Virus record (IMG/VR): IMGVR_UViG_3300017782_000217
Span: 1-24,037 of that record
Length of the DNA: 24,037 nt
Origin: a virus
Direction: 5' to 3' (one strand)
In this document: in pieces, positions 1-20,531 of the stretch
How the letters are laid out: each line of letters opens with the position of its first letter
How positions within the stretch are numbered: the stretch's first letter is position 1
Position numbers and translations under genes: made by a program
Notes under the pieces: generated by a model
Database searches by the model: none
Told to the model about the DNA's origin: nothing
The model's input: only the letters and a program-made list of their open reading frames with translations

Positions 1-2
1 AT

Positions 3-314
3 AGGGGGTGCATTTTTTTTCACTACCTCACGAAAATTTATGATGTATATTTCACGACTTTCAATTTCCTTTGAATTTTCTTTATAAGTCATTTTTAATT
101 TAATATATTTTCTTGTTTTTAATTGTCCAATCCAATCAGTAATTGATCTTGTTTTTACACCATATAGGTCAGCAAAATATTTATTTCTTGCAAAACAAAA
201 ACCTTTTTCATTACATAGGGCAGTAATTTCGCCATACAATAATTTGGCATTAGGGGTTAGTGTTTGGTCATATCTGACAAATGCAGGTATGATAGCATAA
301 TAACTTTTTTTCAT
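3..314 (-). CDS. HTH_36-type phage replication initiator-like protein, C-terminus off the window
   Basis: The frame is open from an ATG at 314 to the left edge, giving about 104 N-terminal residues. It begins MKKSYYAIIPAFVRYDQTLT, followed by PNAKLLYGEI and then a winged-helix stretch with FARNKYFADLYGVKTRSITDW. This is the pattern of the HTH_36 domain at the N-terminus of phage replisome-organiser or initiator proteins, in which the helix-turn-helix binds origin DNA and a later domain recruits helicase. The C-terminal part, which would show a DnaD-like or helicase-loading region, is outside the window. The gene follows the 84-aa ORF by about 8 bp and closes the recombination/replication block, which fits a replication role. 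Family recognition is by pattern; the exact function is inferred. Confidence 0.75.
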   Translation of the reverse strand, partial: MKKSYYAIIPAFVRYDQTLTPNAKLLYGEITALCNEKGFCFARNKYFADLYGVKTRSITDWIGQLKTRKYIKLKMTYKENSKEIESREIYIINFREVVKKNAPP

Positions 315-321
315 TTAATCT

Positions 322-576
322 TTACAGGTTTTCGGTAATGTTTTTTAATTCATTACAAAATTTTCTTAATCGGTCATACATTAATTGGACATCTTCAAAT
401 GAAATTTCTTCATCTTGAAACTTTAAAAAAAGTGCTTCAATTAATAGATCAAACTCAACTTTAGTTAAAGAACCTATGTAGTCATAGTTTTCAAAGTCAT
501 CAAAATTATGATTGACAGTATAACGAATCCTTTGCTTAGATTCTGACCAATAAACCATTTTATAACTCTGTACCAT
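322..576 (-). CDS. Hypothetical protein, 84 aa
   Basis: This is a small acidic, probably soluble and alpha-helical protein that I do not recognise. It has no membrane segment, no cysteine pairs and no catalytic motif. Two starts are possible: ATG at 576, which overlaps the end of the nuclease fusion gene by 17 bp, or ATG at 558 (residue 7), two bases after that gene's stop codon. The second would be a tighter coupling. It lies between the DnaA-like/VRR-NUC gene and the HTH_36 replication gene, so it is read in the same operon and may be a replication or recombination accessory. That is context only; no function should be assigned. Confidence 0.7.
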   Translation of the reverse strand: MVQSYKMVYWSESKQRIRYTVNHNFDDFENYDYIGSLTKVEFDLLIEALFLKFQDEEISFEDVQLMYDRLRKFCNELKNITENL

Positions 577-1234
577 TGGAAAGGGATAAATAAAGGTCTA
601 TAATTTCAATAGTTTTATCATAATCATTTGTCCAATGACACTCCCAATTCTCTTTTCTTAATCTCTCTAAAGCATCTTTTTGACTATCGGTTGGTTTATT
701 ATACCCAATCTTTAGTTCTATTGCAAGACCACTTTTATTATTACCACCAGGTCTAAATATTAAGATGTCAGGAATACCTGCTTTGCCACCTAAATATTTA
801 AACTTAAATCTTTCAAAAGGACTTCTTTTTCCCTCGTTAGCACAATGTATTGCATAAACATCAGGGTATTGAAACCCTAAATATTCCATTACACTATGTT
901 GTAACTTATCCTCTTTGCTAAGATATTTTTCGTATGGATTTGCCAATTTATCTATATTTCTTAAACATATATGTTTTAAAGTTAAGTAATTATTTTGGGT
1001 TGGTTTGTCAAACTCTAAAAAAGAGTGCAAAGTTTTAATGCCGTGATTTACCGAAGCGTGATCTTTGTGAACAGATTTGCCAATTCTTTCAAGAGTAGCA
1101 CCAGGAATTAATTCCCTTGACAAACTATAATACATACTCCTTGCATCAACAAATTGTCTTTTCCTTGATTTGCTTGTTATATTAACCTCAAAAAATTCAT
1201 TTACTATTCCTTTTATTGTGTTTAAATCTTTCAT
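560..1234 (-). CDS. DnaA domain IV-like HTH fused to VRR-NUC nuclease
   Basis: The protein is 224 aa from the ATG at 1234. That start overlaps the preceding stop as ATGA; a TTG four codons upstream is less likely. Residues about 5-75 resemble DnaA domain IV: RKRQFVDARSMYYSLSREL, then LERIGKSVHKDHASVNHG, where DHASVNHG sits at the DnaA-box-binding signature (DHTTVxHA in DnaA). Residues about 108-215 form a VRR-NUC domain of the PD-(D/E)XK superfamily: NEGKR, then GIPD (D156), AIELK (E173, K175) and Q185. VRR-NUC enzymes cut structured or branched DNA. The DNA-binding half could bring the nuclease to DnaA-box-like sites or an origin; that is inference. It lies between a RecE-like nuclease and a replication initiator. 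Both halves look intact. The domain calls are by motif and the fusion is direct from one uninterrupted frame. Confidence 0.85.
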   Translation of the reverse strand: MKDLNTIKGIVNEFFEVNITSKSRKRQFVDARSMYYSLSRELIPGATLERIGKSVHKDHASVNHGIKTLHSFLEFDKPTQNNYLTLKHICLRNIDKLANPYEKYLSKEDKLQHSVMEYLGFQYPDVYAIHCANEGKRSPFERFKFKYLGGKAGIPDILIFRPGGNNKSGLAIELKIGYNKPTDSQKDALERLRKENWECHWTNDYDKTIEIIDLYLSLSNGTEL

Positions 1235-2025
1235 CTTTTTTTCCAACCTTTTAAAATTATAGTACCATCATCATCAAAATCTTGGGATTGATACCCAGTT
1301 ACAATTCCCTTTTCTTTATAGAGTTTCCAAAATGTAAATGCTCTTTCAAAATCTAATTCAGCATTTTCAAGATGGACTTCATCTAATTTAAAAACTTCAA
1401 TACCAAAAGGGTGATTAGTTTCACAAGCTATAAATCTAAACCTCGATGGATCAATGCCTAACATAAAGCAGTAAAAATATGCCTGTATATGATAGTTTCT
1501 ATTTTGAATTTCTTTATTAAACTTTTCAGGTGAACTATCTTGACAAGTTTTTATATCGCTAATCCAATCATCGCCCATACAATCAGGTCTTACTCTAACT
1601 GGTATGCCTTGATAAGTTCCATAATGAGAAACCTCAATTTTACCTTTTGACCATTTTTTAACCTTATCATTGCTAATAAAATTCTCGTGTACTCCCCTTA
1701 TGATATTATCTTCTTCTTCATCTAAAGGTATTTTACCTTTATTTTTTTCAATAAGTATTGCTTTTAATTCTTTGTCATCTTTTTTTCTTAGATCAAGTTT
1801 TGGCATAACATAGTATTCCTTTTTAAATGCTTCAATACCCTCATAACAAATTGTGTGTACGGCATTACCCCTTGTCATATATTTAGTTGTCTTAATGGGT
1901 TTTCGCTTTAAATAGTGCCAAACTGATTTCTCAGCTATGAATTTCAAGCTACTTGCTGAAATTGAATCTTTTGAGTGATAATCCTTAATACTATCATTTT
2001 TTACTTCTAAGTTTTCTATTTTCAT
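1231..2025 (-). CDS. RecE/Cas4-like PD-(D/E)XK exonuclease
   Basis: This 264-aa protein resembles phage exonucleases of the RecE (exonuclease VIII C-terminal)/Cas4/YqaJ-like group. The expected motifs appear in order: SASSLKFI near the N-terminus; RGNAVH with H57; an acidic residue E131; the core RVRPDCMGDDWISDIKT with D148, D157 and K159; and YHIQAYFY with Q181 and Y185. Such enzymes resect double-stranded DNA ends 5' to 3' to expose a strand for an annealing protein. An Erf-type annealing gene lies about 440 bp upstream in the same operon, so the two probably form a two-component recombination pair. Its ATG lies inside the end of the coiled-coil miniprotein gene, and its stop overlaps the next ATG (ATGA), indicating translational coupling. 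Confidence 0.85.
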   Translation of the reverse strand: MKIENLEVKNDSIKDYHSKDSISASSLKFIAEKSVWHYLKRKPIKTTKYMTRGNAVHTICYEGIEAFKKEYYVMPKLDLRKKDDKELKAILIEKNKGKIPLDEEEDNIIRGVHENFISNDKVKKWSKGKIEVSHYGTYQGIPVRVRPDCMGDDWISDIKTCQDSSPEKFNKEIQNRNYHIQAYFYCFMLGIDPSRFRFIACETNHPFGIEVFKLDEVHLENAELDFERAFTFWKLYKEKGIVTGYQSQDFDDDGTIILKGWKKR

Positions 2026-2174: not shown

Positions 2175-2462
2175 TTAGAATGGTAAGTCATCATCTTGCT
2201 CTGCAATAACAGGTATAGATTCTGATTTAACTTCTTTTTGCTGCATATCATTTGTCTTGCCATTGCCAAGATAATTTGTTTTTGCACCACCATCTCTTTC
2301 TTCTTTTGTTTGAGATTGTGCTATTGCAACATTGTTATTGAACTGGTCAGGTTCATCATTTACAAAAAGAACTAAATTTAAATAAGTTCCTTTTTGACCT
2401 TTTATAAGTTTTGATTTATCAATTTTAGATAAATTAATACTTGCAGTAATTGTTCGTGCCAT
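2175..2462 (-). CDS. Small protein with SSB-like acidic tail
   Basis: This 95-aa protein has a beta-rich N-terminal half (TASINLSKIDKSKLIKG, then TYLNLVLFVNDEPDQFNNN), a polar middle and a C-terminus ending DDDLPF. An acidic tail ending in LPF or IPF is the hallmark of bacterial single-stranded-DNA-binding proteins, where it recruits repair and replication enzymes. The N-terminal region is shorter than a standard OB fold (about 110 aa), so this is not a textbook SSB. It may be a divergent phage SSB or a protein that uses the same docking tail. It is directly upstream of a terminator and directly downstream of the Erf gene (1 bp apart), which fits an ssDNA-handling role. Confidence 0.75.
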   Translation of the reverse strand: MARTITASINLSKIDKSKLIKGQKGTYLNLVLFVNDEPDQFNNNVAIAQSQTKEERDGGAKTNYLGNGKTNDMQQKEVKSESIPVIAEQDDDLPF

Positions 2463-2463
2463 A

Positions 2464-2955
2464 TTATATTTTGTTATGATAAACTTTTTTATTTTGATTT
2501 ACAGAAGTTATTGATCTGCTTTGATTTATTGTTTTTCCCGATGCTTGGTTTGCATCATCATCTTTAGTTCTAATTCCTATCAATCCTTGTAAAGTAAATC
2601 TTCTAAAATAAGTGATTGTGCTTCCAAGTTTTTGAGGATCAGATACAGGTTGTAATTCTAAACTTGATGATTTAGATTGTCCTGTTTCAACACAAGTCAA
2701 AATAGTAAAAACTTTACCATCTTTCATTGGTTGTTCAATACACACTTTATATTTATTTAATAAAGGTTGTAATTGTTCTAACATCGCATTGATGTCTGCA
2801 TAATTAGATTTAAAAAAAGGATTATTAGCATCTTTTATAATAGCTTCAATCTCATTTTGAATTCTAAATATTTTAAGATTGATACTCCAATTTGGAAAAT
2901 CCATCTTTTTAACAACTGTCTTTTTAGGAGTTGTCGTAGCTTTCTCTTTATTCAT
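2464..2955 (-). CDS. Erf-family single-strand annealing protein
   Basis: This 163-aa protein matches the ERF superfamily of phage recombinases, which coat and anneal complementary single strands during recombination and genome circularisation. Diagnostic stretches are NPFFKSNYADINAMLEQLQP (residues 45-64), a TxxxCVETGQSKSSS strand (about 85-98), then DPQKLGSTITYFRRF (106-120) and LIGIRTKDDDAN (125-136), the conserved GSxITYxRR and DDDA signatures. The basic N-terminal 18 residues and the polar C-terminal tail are variable in the family. It is encoded just before the SSB-like gene and one gene block before a RecE-like nuclease, giving a complete recombination set. Length is near the short end for Erf proteins but the core is intact. 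Confidence 0.92.
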   Translation of the reverse strand: MNKEKATTTPKKTVVKKMDFPNWSINLKIFRIQNEIEAIIKDANNPFFKSNYADINAMLEQLQPLLNKYKVCIEQPMKDGKVFTILTCVETGQSKSSSLELQPVSDPQKLGSTITYFRRFTLQGLIGIRTKDDDANQASGKTINQSRSITSVNQNKKVYHNKI

Positions 2956-4811: not shown

Positions 4812-4819
4812 CAAATTTA
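4812..4819 (-). promoter_or_regulatory. Possible -7 box (TAAATTTG) before the 445-aa gene
   Basis: This is an exact TAnnTTTG match, ending 4 bp before the ATG at 4807 on the minus strand. There is no clear TTTG about 20 bp upstream, and the box overlaps the stop codon of the preceding gene. In DNA this A/T-rich, chance matches are expected. Confidence 0.3.
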
Positions 4820-5725
4820 CAATATTTCCTTTATAAGTTGATAGTAATTGTAACAAGCTAAATTTGGATTTACTTCAAGGTCTTTTGGTGGTTTTTTAGT
4901 TCTGTAATGTCCTTTTTGAAATTCTTTATTTTTTGATGATACTATTCCTGCATTGTGATATATTGAATTTTTTTCCCAACTATCAATTGAGTGTGTTGCC
5001 CAAGTAAAATCTAATTCTTTAATAATTTTTGTTGGTTTATCAATTTTCCATAAATTCCACAAAACTGCCCACATATCGGCACACCAAATTTGTAATTCGT
5101 GATAATCTTTATCTTTTTTTTTCTTTTTGTTATTTAATTTAAAAACTTGTGAATATAAATTCTCACAATCATTTTCTACATCTTCCCAAAATTTAGCATT
5201 AATGTCTTTTAAAACATATTGACAACCTCCTGAATTTTCTTGATTATCTTTTAATATGTTTTTATCAATACCAACAACACTGCACATTAACTCTAAAACA
5301 TCTTCGCCTTTTGATAATATATAATCATAACCAATATAGCTTTTGGTATTGCTTAAATAACAATTTGGATCACAACCACACAATTTATCACTTAAATCTA
5401 AAGGTTTTGTTAAAACTATATCGCAATCGTGATACATAAATGTACCTCTATATTTCCACCAATACTTTTTAAAATGTTTTTTTAATAAATGTGGTCTAAT
5501 ACTTGAAATGTATTTAATATCAGTTCTTGTATCAGGATAAATATGAAAATTTACTTTTGGATATTTAATTTTTAAAAGGATATATTCATTTATATCGTTT
5601 TTAAAATCAGAAAAAATAATGTCAATCTTATCTTGTTCGATACCAACTCGGATAAAACTTGAAATCATTACATCAATTTGCCAACAAAAATAAAGTTGTC
5701 CTGGTTGAGCAGAAATATATCTCAT
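4817..5725 (-). CDS. Glycosyltransferase-like protein (GT-A type, DxD motif)
   Basis: The 302-aa protein has features of a GT-A-fold sugar transferase. There is an N-terminal region of alternating strands and helices, then MYHDCDIVLTKPLD (about residues 97-110), where D100 and D102 form a DxD motif expected to bind a metal and nucleotide-sugar. Late in the protein comes SIYHNAGIVSS, resembling the His-containing motif near the end of many GT-A domains. It starts 3 bp after the tail-tip gene and is followed by another tail-region gene, an unusual place for such an enzyme. A plausible but untested role is modification of the Thr-rich tail protein encoded just upstream. A Lys run (KKKKKDKD) is coded by A tracts prone to slippage. 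No signal peptide is seen, so it acts in the host cytoplasm. Confidence 0.65.
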   Translation of the reverse strand: MRYISAQPGQLYFCWQIDVMISSFIRVGIEQDKIDIIFSDFKNDINEYILLKIKYPKVNFHIYPDTRTDIKYISSIRPHLLKKHFKKYWWKYRGTFMYHDCDIVLTKPLDLSDKLCGCDPNCYLSNTKSYIGYDYILSKGEDVLELMCSVVGIDKNILKDNQENSGGCQYVLKDINAKFWEDVENDCENLYSQVFKLNNKKKKKDKDYHELQIWCADMWAVLWNLWKIDKPTKIIKELDFTWATHSIDSWEKNSIYHNAGIVSSKNKEFQKGHYRTKKPPKDLEVNPNLACYNYYQLIKEIL

Positions 5726-12504: not shown

Positions 12505-15384
12505 TTATGAGTGTACATAAGTTCCACTTCCTGTGTATTTTATTATTGTAAAATCTCCATCTGTTGTTACTGTTGGTGAACCTGTTACAGAACTTGAATA
12601 TTCAGATGTAAGTAATCTTAAAATTACAACTCCTGAACCTCCAACACCTCCATCAGTTGGCGTACCTCCACCTCCTGCACCACCACCACCACCTGTGTTA
12701 GCCGTTCCGTCTATTCCTCTTGATGGTATGCCTTGTGTAGCACCTCCACCACCACCTCCATCACCACCTGGAGTAACTGTAGAGTCATTTCTTGAACCTC
12801 CACCACCTCCTGCATATGTAACAGAAGAACCTGTTATTTCGACTGCTAATCCATCTCCACCATATCCTGCACCATCTGTACCTCCTGCTTCAGAAGCACC
12901 TCCACCTCCACCACCATTAGCAGGTTGAGTTGGTGCATTTCCAATACTACCACCAAATCCTTGATTTGCCGTTCCTGAACTTGTTGTTGTTGAATTATGT
13001 CCTGAACCACCACCAGAACCACCATCTAAACCATTTCCATATGTATCTTTACCACCTCCACCACCTAAAGATGTTATAGTTGTTAATCCTGATGCAGCTA
13101 TTGATGAATTACCACCATTTGTTTGAGTAACTCCACCTGCACCAATTGTAATTGTATAAGTTCCTGCTGCTAAAGTTATATCGCTTTCAGAACTTGAACC
13201 ACCACCTGAAGTAGGACCATAAGATGTACGAAGTCCTCCTGCACCTCCACCACCACCAATGGAATTAGTACAACCACCACCTCCACCAGCAATAACAAGG
13301 AATGACATATTACCTGCGACTGGATATAGTGTTGGGTTCATTTTTATTGCCCAGTATATAGAACTTTGTCCACTATCATTATAATAACCTGATGTAAATT
13401 CAAATCCAGTACTTGTAAAATTTATATTAGTAGTTTCATCAACTTCTGCATCTGAATTGTTAGCTTCTAATCTTTTTCTTTTTGGATTTCCATCTCTTAC
13501 ACTATCAAAAATCATCCAATCCTGACCGCTTGTATATTTTCGAAGCATTACAAAATCAGGTTTAAAACCAACATTAATTGATTGCGAAGTTCCATTACCT
13601 GCATAACTTCCAAACTTTTGATACGATGTAACATCGTGGAAACAGTAAGCTATGTAAGTACCACTATTAGAATTAATACAAGAACCTGAAGCACAATTAC
13701 TTAAAGTAAATACCGTGCTTGAAGGGGTTGTGTTATTAAATGCAGCATCAGTTACTTCAGCATCATCTGTGTTTAAGTTTAATGTTTTTGTATTACCTAA
13801 TGATGAGTGATATACTACCCAATCTTCTGCATAATCTAATCTTTTAACAATTATCATATTAGGTGCTGCTGAAAGACCGTGACCAACTGTAGCCCCTGCT
13901 GCTTGTGTTCCATCATATTTAACGATTGAAAAACCTGCATTAGCATTTGCACTAACAAGTGAATTTATGCTACCATTATCATTAATTGTCGGTTCGTTAT
14001 CATCAGCTTTCCAAGTCCAAGCTACAAATTTTGAATTATTATAATTATGACCTGATTCGCTTCCTACTGTAAACCCATCTGAATCAAATGAAGTTAATCC
14101 ATTGGCTATTGTTCCTTCAGCACCAGTTGTATTTGGTAAAATATATTTGCCAGTACCTCTTGTTGAATCGTATATGACGTGATTAAAATTTAAATCTCTA
14201 CCTTTAATCCAAACAAAAGATGGCGAAAATCCTAATCCTGTAATACTTTGTGTTCCACCATTACCAGTATAAGTTTTTACATTAAAACTATCTGCAAGTG
14301 TTGGTGCTTCTGTGTCAGGATCAGCAGCAAATGCCATATAGATAAATGTACCATTGTTTAAATTTACAGGACCTGAATTTGTGTTTATTCTAAATCCATT
14401 AGATAAAAACTCTAAATAATATCCACCATCATATTCAGCACCACTTGTATCCGCTCTTAATATTAATCTTTTTTCTTGACCAGGATTTCTTTTATTATCA
14501 AACATATACCAACCATAATTAGATGTATTTGTGTTTTTTATCATCACAAAAGCAGGTTCAAATCCTGTTTCTATAATTGGTCCTCCTCCAGATACTCCAT
14601 TACCTGTGTATGAACCAATCTTTGAAAAGCCATCAACTGAATGAAAACAGTAGGCAATAAAATTATCACTTGATTTTGCTACTGAATTATCAGCCCCTAT
14701 ACCAAACACTGTAGCATTTCCTGCTTGTGCAGTTGTAGAATCATCAGATTTTCCAGAAGTGCCATCAAGTAACATTCTTGCATTATCTCCTAATTGTGGC
14801 AATTGTACTATCCAATTATTTACACTATCTCTTGTTTTAATTATTACTAAATCACATTTAGCTGAAAGTCCGTGTCCTATTGTTCCTGCACTACCACTTC
14901 CAGTATATTTAACTATTGAGAATCCTGCATCTTGATTTGCTTGTACTGTACTTGTAACACTTCCATCTGAATTACTGCTTGTAGTTCCTCCGTTTGCTTT
15001 CCAACACCAAGCTACGTATTGAGTATTACTGTGGTTAAAATTAGAACCAGCTGCATTTGTTCCTTTTCTAACTGTAAATCCATCTGAATCAAATGAATCT
15101 AATTGTCCATATAACCCTCTCCAAGATGATGAATATGTTGATTCTGGGCTTGTGCCATCACTTCCAAGAATAGAGTTTATTCCACGAGTACTATCCATAA
15201 CAGTATGAGACCAAGCATAAGTTCTTGTTTTAATCCACACAAAGTCAGGTTTAAATCCAAGACCTGTAATAGATTGAGTTGAATTTCCATCGCCTGTGTA
15301 TGCAACTACCTTAAAGTTTTCACTTGGAGTTACTGCACCACTTCCAACAGCACCTGCACCAATTAATCTTTTATTTAAACCCAT
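12505..15384 (-). CDS. Large repeat and glycine-rich tail adhesin, 959 aa
   Basis: The protein consists of two long tandem halves followed by a glycine-rich domain. Half 1 starts near residue 23 (SITGLGFKPDFVWIKTRTY) and half 2 near residue 365 (SITGLGFSPSFVWIKGRDL). Each half holds three related sub-repeats, the second containing AGFSIVKY...GHGLSA (about 155 and 485) and the third GSYxGNG (about 253 and 590). The repeats resemble those of marine-phage fibre proteins (DUF7483-like). From about residue 698 to 930 the chain is very rich in Gly (GGGGGAGGLRTSYGPTSGGG), like polyglycine receptor-binding domains of phage adhesins. It ends IIKYTGSGTYVHS, a partial repeat. It probably binds the host surface. 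The long Pro-rich frame on the opposite strand here is a by-product of the glycine codons. Confidence 0.85.
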   Translation of the reverse strand: MGLNKRLIGAGAVGSGAVTPSENFKVVAYTGDGNSTQSITGLGFKPDFVWIKTRTYAWSHTVMDSTRGINSILGSDGTSPESTYSSSWRGLYGQLDSFDSDGFTVRKGTNAAGSNFNHSNTQYVAWCWKANGGTTSSNSDGSVTSTVQANQDAGFSIVKYTGSGSAGTIGHGLSAKCDLVIIKTRDSVNNWIVQLPQLGDNARMLLDGTSGKSDDSTTAQAGNATVFGIGADNSVAKSSDNFIAYCFHSVDGFSKIGSYTGNGVSGGGPIIETGFEPAFVMIKNTNTSNYGWYMFDNKRNPGQEKRLILRADTSGAEYDGGYYLEFLSNGFRINTNSGPVNLNNGTFIYMAFAADPDTEAPTLADSFNVKTYTGNGGTQSITGLGFSPSFVWIKGRDLNFNHVIYDSTRGTGKYILPNTTGAEGTIANGLTSFDSDGFTVGSESGHNYNNSKFVAWTWKADDNEPTINDNGSINSLVSANANAGFSIVKYDGTQAAGATVGHGLSAAPNMIIVKRLDYAEDWVVYHSSLGNTKTLNLNTDDAEVTDAAFNNTTPSSTVFTLSNCASGSCINSNSGTYIAYCFHDVTSYQKFGSYAGNGTSQSINVGFKPDFVMLRKYTSGQDWMIFDSVRDGNPKRKRLEANNSDAEVDETTNINFTSTGFEFTSGYYNDSGQSSIYWAIKMNPTLYPVAGNMSFLVIAGGGGGCTNSIGGGGGAGGLRTSYGPTSGGGSSSESDITLAAGTYTITIGAGGVTQTNGGNSSIAASGLTTITSLGGGGGKDTYGNGLDGGSGGGSGHNSTTTSSGTANQGFGGSIGNAPTQPANGGGGGGASEAGGTDGAGYGGDGLAVEITGSSVTYAGGGGGSRNDSTVTPGGDGGGGGGATQGIPSRGIDGTANTGGGGGAGGGGTPTDGGVGGSGVVILRLLTSEYSSSVTGSPTVTTDGDFTIIKYTGSGTYVHS

Positions 15385-20168: not shown

Positions 20169-20531
20169 CTATTTAAAGTCAAAGTTATTAAAAAATTTTG
20201 AATAATTATTTGTCAAACTTAATCTTACGGCTAATCTTGTACCATCATTTTTAAAAATAAAAAAACCTTCAAATTTTTCTACCCATATCGCAAAATAATC
20301 TACATCTACTTTTTCATAAGTTCGTTTCCATTGTATGTGTACAGTTTTTCTATTTCTTTGAAAACCTTGAAATGTTGATTTGATTTGAATTCTATAAATA
20401 TTATCTCCAGTGTCTGCAAGACAATCATATACGGAAGTATGGAGCAAGGGATAGGATATTTTTATGTCTCTTTTAAGACATTCAATACCGAATTTATATT
20501 CAGCAATACAACCCTTTGAATTGCTATCCAC
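20169..20531 (-). CDS. Stand-alone PD-(D/E)XK endonuclease-like protein
   Basis: The 120-aa protein has the core of the PD-(D/E)XK endonuclease family that includes the intron enzyme I-Ssp6803I and Holliday-junction-resolvase-like proteins. The pieces are KGCIAEYKFGIECLKRD with E11, a hydrophobic strand, SVYDCLAD with D36, and YRIQIKST with Q49 and K51 (Q in place of the usual D/E, as in the QxK form). A basic, aromatic segment (NRKTVHIQWKRTYEKVDVDY) follows. The start is GTG at 20531; there is no nearby in-frame ATG. It lies between capsid and connector genes, is bounded by terminators on both sides and has no intron around it. It may be a free-standing homing-type nuclease or a resolvase; which one cannot be told from sequence alone. 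Confidence 0.75.
   Translation of the reverse strand: MDSNSKGCIAEYKFGIECLKRDIKISYPLLHTSVYDCLADTGDNIYRIQIKSTFQGFQRNRKTVHIQWKRTYEKVDVDYFAIWVEKFEGFFIFKNDGTRLAVRLSLTNNYSKFFNNFDFK

Follow-up and report, generated by a model that had tools for sequence, protein, structure and literature searches.

VRR-Nuc modules commonly occur as standalone domains, and in 2014 their role in phages was called unknown, according to passages of PMC4103454 that treat them. Three studied members, psNUC, stNUC and saNUC, are described there as single-domain proteins, all of them dimers and all able to cut four-way junctions: psNUC binds Holliday junctions and cuts them symmetrically and efficiently while leaving linear duplex uncut under the same conditions, and stNUC and saNUC cut junctions more weakly and show nonspecific nuclease activity. 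A nuclease joined to a DnaA_C HTH is described, in passages of PMC6006769, for TnpAREP subclass 2.1.2, where the nuclease is of the HUH transposase type and the HTH is C-terminal; in subclass 2.1 a Bac_DnaA_C-type domain sits on the nuclease and the flanking repeats are unlike DnaA boxes. According to passages of PMC5742627, DnaA itself inserts R399 into the minor groove and uses helix 434-451 to read the TnCACA half of its box.

The stretch of viral DNA analysed here, 24,037 nucleotides of IMG/VR record IMGVR_UViG_3300017782_000217 (hereafter the window), encodes a protein that likewise joins a nuclease to a DnaA-type HTH. Unlike the single-domain VRR-Nuc proteins, it carries this HTH at its N-terminus, and unlike TnpAREP subclass 2.1.2, its nuclease belongs to the PD-(D/E)XK type. 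We found no paper on a DnaA_C–VRR-NUC fusion in the open-licence PubMed Central literature, among the matches listed. The protein represents a large family that ties a VRR-Nuc enzyme to a DnaA-type DNA-binding domain, fused or adjacent, beside a RecE-like gene. We think that it is, on balance, probably a Holliday-junction-resolvase-type endonuclease of a phage RecE/Erf recombination operon, with the DnaA-domain-IV-type HTH as its DNA-docking arm.

The original prediction of a single frame joining a DnaA-type HTH to a VRR-NUC nuclease was borne out (Table 1). On the minus strand, a single unbroken frame of 224 codons runs from the ATG (1234) to the stop codon (562-560), and both domains score above their curated Pfam cut-offs: Bac_DnaA_C (PF08299) over residues 6-68 (E=2.4e-10, 40.7 bits against 31.5) and VRR_NUC (PF08774) over residues 128-197 (E=2.3e-6, 28.1 bits against 23.8). 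In an alignment of the window protein with 29 relatives of our choosing, Bac_DnaA_C is matched by 30/30 fused proteins and VRR_NUC by 29/30 (E<=1e-3), and a profile made from the 30 finds the VRR-NUC structure 4qbl at 6.4e-14 and the DnaA domain IV structure 1j1v at 4.8e-9. A structure model of the window protein built on the same alignment has a mean pLDDT of 87.6, falling to 63 over linker residues 91-100, and a pTM of 0.56, with the relative placing of the two domains unreliable. Its residues 2-95 superpose on 3pvp with Z 16.5 and an rmsd of 1.3 A over 93 residues (VIA-align), and it matches 1j1v with Z 15.5 and an rmsd of 1.4 A; in both structures DnaA domain IV is bound to DnaA-box DNA. 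The DnaA_C identity of the N-terminal part, on which the prediction had been staked, is thus carried by the Pfam score and the fold alike. Two other identities were rejected. The full-length DnaA family (NCBIfam TIGR00362) scores 35.2 bits against a cut-off of 343.9 and covers residues 4-87 only, matching the DnaA end without the AAA+ part, which rules out a DnaA replication initiator, and the window protein has no HUH or Y1 nuclease Pfam match at E<=1, which speaks against a TnpAREP with DnaA_C.

Table 1. Features at the fused nuclease locus of the window (positions in the window; residues numbered in the fused protein).
Feature	Position	Strand	Basis
HTH_36 protein, cut by window edge	1..314	-	Pfam HTH_36 9.3e-10
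84-aa protein, overlaps 3' end of fused gene	322..576	-	open frame
Fused protein: DnaA-domain-IV-type HTH + VRR-NUC nuclease, 224 aa	560..1234	-	frame, Pfam, predicted fold
VRR-NUC nuclease domain, residues 106-221	572..919	-	Pfam, invariant residues, predicted fold, profile
Linker with LANPYEKYL, residues 96-105	920..949	-	resembles MANPYDKWL start of free-standing nuclease in split relatives
DnaA domain IV-like domain, residues 2-95	950..1231	-	Pfam Bac_DnaA_C and VIA-align
Recognition-helix stretch KDHASVNHGIKT, residues 57-68; D58=D433, H59=H434, H64=H439	1031..1066	-	alignment
R24, aligned to E. coli DnaA R399 (minor-groove arginine)	1163..1165	-	alignment
RecE-like exonuclease (DUF3799 / phrog_412)	1231..2025	-	Pfam, phrog match
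95-aa protein, acidic tail (DDDLPF), phrog_24909	2175..2462	-	read from sequence; phrog match
Erf-family ssDNA annealing protein	2464..2955	-	Pfam ERF 5.8e-24; phrog_155

Among solved nucleases, the VRR-NUC protein 4qbl lies closest to residues 106-224 of the model (110 residues aligned at Z 14.9 and an rmsd of 2.4 A), and we take it to be the psNUC of Pennell et al. (2014, PMC4103454). The 4qbl structure has six chains, as stated for psNUC in passages of PMC4103454. Three VRR-NUC structures head the list of nucleases and are followed by archaeal Hjc, with RecU lower (Z 7.0-7.7, in the range of chance matches). The predicted model of the nuclease domain combines the PD-(D/E)XK catalytic residues with a VRR-Nuc/Hjc-like fold. 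E108, D109, Q112, D156, E173 and K175 are invariant in 30/30 fused proteins; D156 belongs to GIPD and E173 and K175 to the ELK motif, the two catalytic motifs that had been predicted to be intact. The domain is therefore like those of psNUC, stNUC and saNUC in Pfam family, in fold and in the E-D-x-x-Q, PD and E-x-K motifs (PMC4103454). By analogy with these assayed proteins, the fused protein would be expected to cleave junctions, and because stNUC and saNUC cut them weakly and show nonspecific activity, a less specific nuclease is also possible.

The gene lies, as had been predicted, among recombination and replication genes, and both neighbours named in advance, the RecE-like and the HTH_36 protein, proved right. 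The TGA stop of the RecE-like gene overlaps the ATG of the fused gene (ATGA), and a RecE-like gene lies directly upstream of the nuclease locus in 27/27 contigs. Downstream, the 84-aa gene is matched in 25/27; an HTH_36 match comes after it in 20 contigs besides the window's cut copy and was not seen in 6/27 (G013, G015, G023-G026). The HTH_36 protein is possibly a replication initiator, and in contig G002 a primase/helicase-like protein, judged by eye, comes next. An Erf match was obtained in 16/27 contigs by simple BLAST. The acidic DDDLPF tail of the 95-aa protein is presumably an SSB-like motif, and the protein may serve as an SSB. Among resolvase families, a profile search that covered RusA and NinG found RusA in 0/27 and NinG in 0/27 of the contigs, which may be incomplete.

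Why attach a DnaA-type HTH to a junction nuclease? Because the gene sits beside a RecE-like exonuclease and an annealing protein, resolution of branched intermediates is the expected task, and we suspect that the nuclease would resolve or trim the branched intermediates of recombination. The HTH would add DNA affinity or placement, holding the nuclease on phage DNA, and such docking could operate during recombination-dependent replication or branch removal. Since the two domains are fused or neighbouring in many relatives, they probably cooperate in phage DNA recombination. This reading builds on domain identity, predicted fold, catalytic motifs, the exchange between fused and split forms, gene context and the absence of RusA and NinG from the search of 27 contigs. 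Of the roles first proposed for the protein, processing of recombination intermediates is the most plausible, and a role in targeting DnaA boxes or oriC is unsupported.

The architecture is widespread among virus contigs as a module. When IMG/VR was scanned with a single sequence, 41 loci emerged, with a fused frame in 27, two cut by a contig end, separate adjacent genes in five and the nuclease only in seven, one of these last being cut by a contig end. With profiles made from the family, 102 loci were scanned, 94 virus loci (some near-copies) and 8 others, the alignment scan keeping the best 80 of 255 relatives. The nuclease is present in 101/102, fused in 56, accompanied by a DnaA_C frame starting within 700 nt in 27 and without a nearby HTH in 18, four of which are cut by contig ends (two of those being the same contig). 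Because it is present in many separate contigs, the fusion is no assembly artefact. The search for the same architecture, suggested along with the prediction, thus found it widely; the accompanying premise that VRR-NUC domains in phages usually stand alone matches passages of PMC4103454 but is contradicted by the family of the window protein. In a set of 50,697 annotated phage records, which may leave out records very near the window, no record matches 80% of the fused protein at a single place. The fused architecture has very probably been deposited already, in UniProt A0A516L0Z0 (BFVD, 218 aa), which aligns over 215 columns at 43% identity; its model differs from that of the window protein by a whole-length rmsd of 13.4 A, the domains being placed differently in the two models.

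In the split loci the nuclease starts with MANPYDKWLGKED or similar, like the fused-form linker LANPYEKYLSKED, and the gap between the two genes is <=30 nt in 14/15 measured. In a tree built on 121 columns from 73 distinct nuclease domains, of which 41 are fused, 20 split and 12 lack the HTH, most split rows fall outside the group that holds all fused rows, so a separate gene pair probably came first, and the HTH was probably once the product of a neighbouring gene that was later fused to the nuclease; the pair is the unit either way. The base of the fused clade is an open fork with split rows L111 and L119 and HTH-less row L125, where single and multiple fusions both fit, and at least three changes are needed by the fused and split states alone. 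A chance read-through fusion of neighbours, without joint function, would account for the likeness between the fused linker and the start of the split-form nuclease, as adjacent-gene fusion predicts. We hold it to be highly improbable, however, given that the fused form is kept across a divergent group making up 41/73 distinct tree rows, that the HTH is under constraint, and that the pair is kept as unfused neighbours in 27 loci.

A clear DnaA_C match is present in 25/27 of the contigs read more fully, each at the nuclease locus (21 fused, 4 split), and G014 has an additional match at E=0.52. No DnaA_C match was found across contigs G021 and G022 (loci L080 and L081, from different metagenomes), in which the nuclease is preceded by about 40 residues; these include LKEICITKLNNLANPF, similar to the linker and the final helix of the HTH domain in fused proteins. 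These two look like natural deletions of the HTH with the nuclease retained, so the arm would not always be needed. The natural fused, split and HTH-less variants offer a way to ask whether phage resolvases reach particular DNA sites.

The HTH of the window protein resembles DnaA domain IV (1j1v, 3pvp) in the fold of the whole domain and keeps the equivalents of R399, R407 and H434, whereas the recognition helix has diverged in many members of the family. R24, R32 and H59, which align to these three E. coli residues, are invariant in 43/43 distinct fused and 20/20 distinct split phage domains, and the conserved Arg and His suggest that the HTH binds DNA. Of the 43 fused domains, 22 have Asn, 20 Asp and one Gly at position D58 (D433), and H64 (H439) is occupied by His in 17, Asn in 12, Val in 8, Phe in 5 and Tyr in 1. 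By comparison, 65 DnaA proteins from 118 Bacteroidota genomes, comprising the 30 best-scoring and 35 lower-scoring ones that we chose, have Asp at the D433 position in 65/65 and, at the H439 position, His in 59/65 and Tyr in 6/65. The window protein itself retains R, D, H and H at the R399, D433, H434 and H439 positions and, with D and H kept there, may still read a DnaA box; its relatives of 75-81% identity have Asn/Asn or Asp/Phe at D433/H439.

A DnaA box in the host hardly varies as a target and should fix these residues, so their variability disfavours it. We therefore regard as very improbable a scheme in which the nuclease is led to host DnaA boxes, cutting oriC or blocking host DnaA, even though D, H and H are present in the window protein and duplex cutting is conceivable in light of some nonspecific nuclease activity reported for stNUC and saNUC in passages of PMC4103454. 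The same passages have linear duplex left uncut by psNUC, the gene order is that of a recombination operon and, a weak point, there was no PADLOC match; the targeting of host oriC that had been proposed is not supported when such variable positions are set against the near-fixed Bacteroidota DnaA.

In 78 pairwise comparisons among 13 fused genes, the HTH domain has a pN/pS of 0.48 and a mean identity of 60%, the nuclease a pN/pS of 0.23 and a mean identity of 81%. Both domains look constrained, the HTH being maintained yet evolving faster than the nuclease, a pattern compatible with a specificity element and with a simple docking arm alike. We have considered, as a tentative and rather unlikely alternative, that the HTH binds a lineage-specific phage site, such as an origin or a recombination hot spot, and recruits the nuclease to forks or junctions at that site. 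The R399 and H434 equivalents are kept while D58 and H64 change even among close relatives, as expected of a diverging specificity element, and the gene adjoins replication-type genes. There is perhaps one chance in a handful that a reprogrammed DnaA domain IV directs a class of phage junction resolvases, with the docking geometry kept, the base-reading residues changed and each lineage given its own site; if so, origin choice would be linked to recombination. Against a sequence-guided enzyme stand the searches described below, which gave no box cluster beyond shuffles, no iteron common to lineages, no outstanding word per recognition type and no strong synonymous constraint in the HTH_36 or primase/helicase genes, although a single site would escape such tests.

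The scan for matching DnaA boxes, suggested along with the prediction, showed the phage contigs to be neither enriched over a control nor clustered beyond shuffles. The 27 contigs hold 86 exact copies of TTWTNCACA, fewer than the 105 of the reversed pattern used as a control. One-mismatch TTATCCACA sites, scored against 60 dinucleotide shuffles with G017, G025 and G026 covered to 20 kb, number 10 in the window against 10.2 expected. They lie 1.5 to 2.5 sd above the shuffles in G001 (19 vs 13.0), G003 (19 vs 13.1), G004 (19 vs 13.2), G024 (8 vs 3.6) and G025 (6 vs 2.9) and >2 sd below in G007 (4 vs 10.6) and G011 (4 vs 12.3), the remaining contigs being within 2 sd. One or two exact TTATCCACA occur in 9/27 contigs. 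The largest 400-base cluster of boxes equals the 95th percentile in G001, G002, G006, G012, G013 and G024 and lies above it in none of 27, so no DnaA-box array was found in these contigs, which may be incomplete. With Asp in 20/43 and His in 17/43 at D433/H439 and two relatives that lack the HTH, these counts leave a nuclease aimed at DnaA boxes unsupported, and DnaA-box binding should not be assumed from a DnaA_C match in a phage protein alone.

A DnaA-box-like TTTTCCACA recurs at the same place in the primase/helicase gene in 8/12 contigs examined (G001-G004, G006, G009, G010, G012). We rejected it as a functional box: it lies within the codons of a conserved YFPQ, and synonymous changes disrupt it in G005, G007 and G008, as does a change to YFTQ in G011, so that its conservation looks like coding conservation.

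De novo repeats were judged against a weak null of three first-order Markov samples per contig. The largest repeat count exceeded all three samples in G000 (6 vs 3-4, inside a glycine-rich gene), G002, G006 and G007 (5 vs 4 each), G021 (7 vs 5-6), G023 (6 vs 4-5) and G025 (7 vs 4). AATATTTAAG at +13 in seven of G001-G010 was discarded as a shared repeat, being coding conservation in the nuclease gene; the close relatives G007 and G008 also have common words at -258 and about -6400, and a tail-type gene holds CAACAAC-type repeats shared between contigs. No iteron or operator-like repeat common to lineages was found in the contigs, a weak null. Over-represented words per recognition type gave nothing outstanding by eye, and cumulative GC skew, which rises along nearly the whole of most contigs, locates no origin.

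Synonymous constraint was assessed for those G002 genes that have orthologues in six or more of 13 contigs, leaving out four genes, and no strong constraint appeared inside the HTH_36 or primase/helicase genes of this set. One interval of G002, at +1861 and shortly before the start of the primase/helicase gene, exceeds the permutation limit; insertions interrupt it in G006 and G008. Another, at -1262, barely passes this limit (0.92 vs 0.91). At +5491 to +5506 after the nuclease start of G002, codons are fully conserved among 6 contigs, above the permutation limit.

The repeat search also bears on an HTH that acts chiefly as an operon autoregulator, with fusion coupling the nuclease level to repression. 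DnaA-type HTH domains can regulate transcription, and the HTH gene comes first in the split loci inspected. The missing common operator, weak as that null is, counts against such a role, as does the place of the nuclease gene inside a run of same-strand genes in 27 contigs (only that strand was listed), and we consider it improbable. The docking arm of a recombination nuclease remains our preferred account of the HTH.

Both domains also occur close together in Cellulophaga phage phi46:1, as gp37 (VRR-NUC) and gp40 (putative DnaA protein), although there they are separate genes in reversed order with two small genes between, and Olleya phage Harreka_1 encodes a free DnaA_C protein and a NinG protein. 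Because free DnaA_C proteins are found in Bacteroidota phages and a relative of the nuclease lies in a Muribaculaceae assembly, a Bacteroidota host is plausible; other relatives are in assemblies labelled otherwise. Relatives of the module also appear in assemblies labelled Woesearchaeota (L124) and Gammaproteobacteria (L125), which are probably misbinned phage contigs. It seems that the DnaA HTH is mobile and has been attached as a module to several enzymes. In Bacteroidota genomes, Bac_DnaA_C lies C-terminal to DUF4406 (L231:2670-3263) and to DUF7768 (L228:2618-3265).

Elsewhere in the window, all on the minus strand, 20169-20531 encodes a small PD-(D/E)XK endonuclease (PF11645, E=1.4e-9) near the capsid genes, possibly a selfish nuclease; the 959-aa product of 12505-15384, probably a protein of the tail or of a fibre, has a glycine-rich domain and two DUF7483 stretches; and 4817-5725 encodes a 302-aa protein with no Pfam match at E<=0.01, whose YHDCDIV recalls, by eye, glycosyltransferases.
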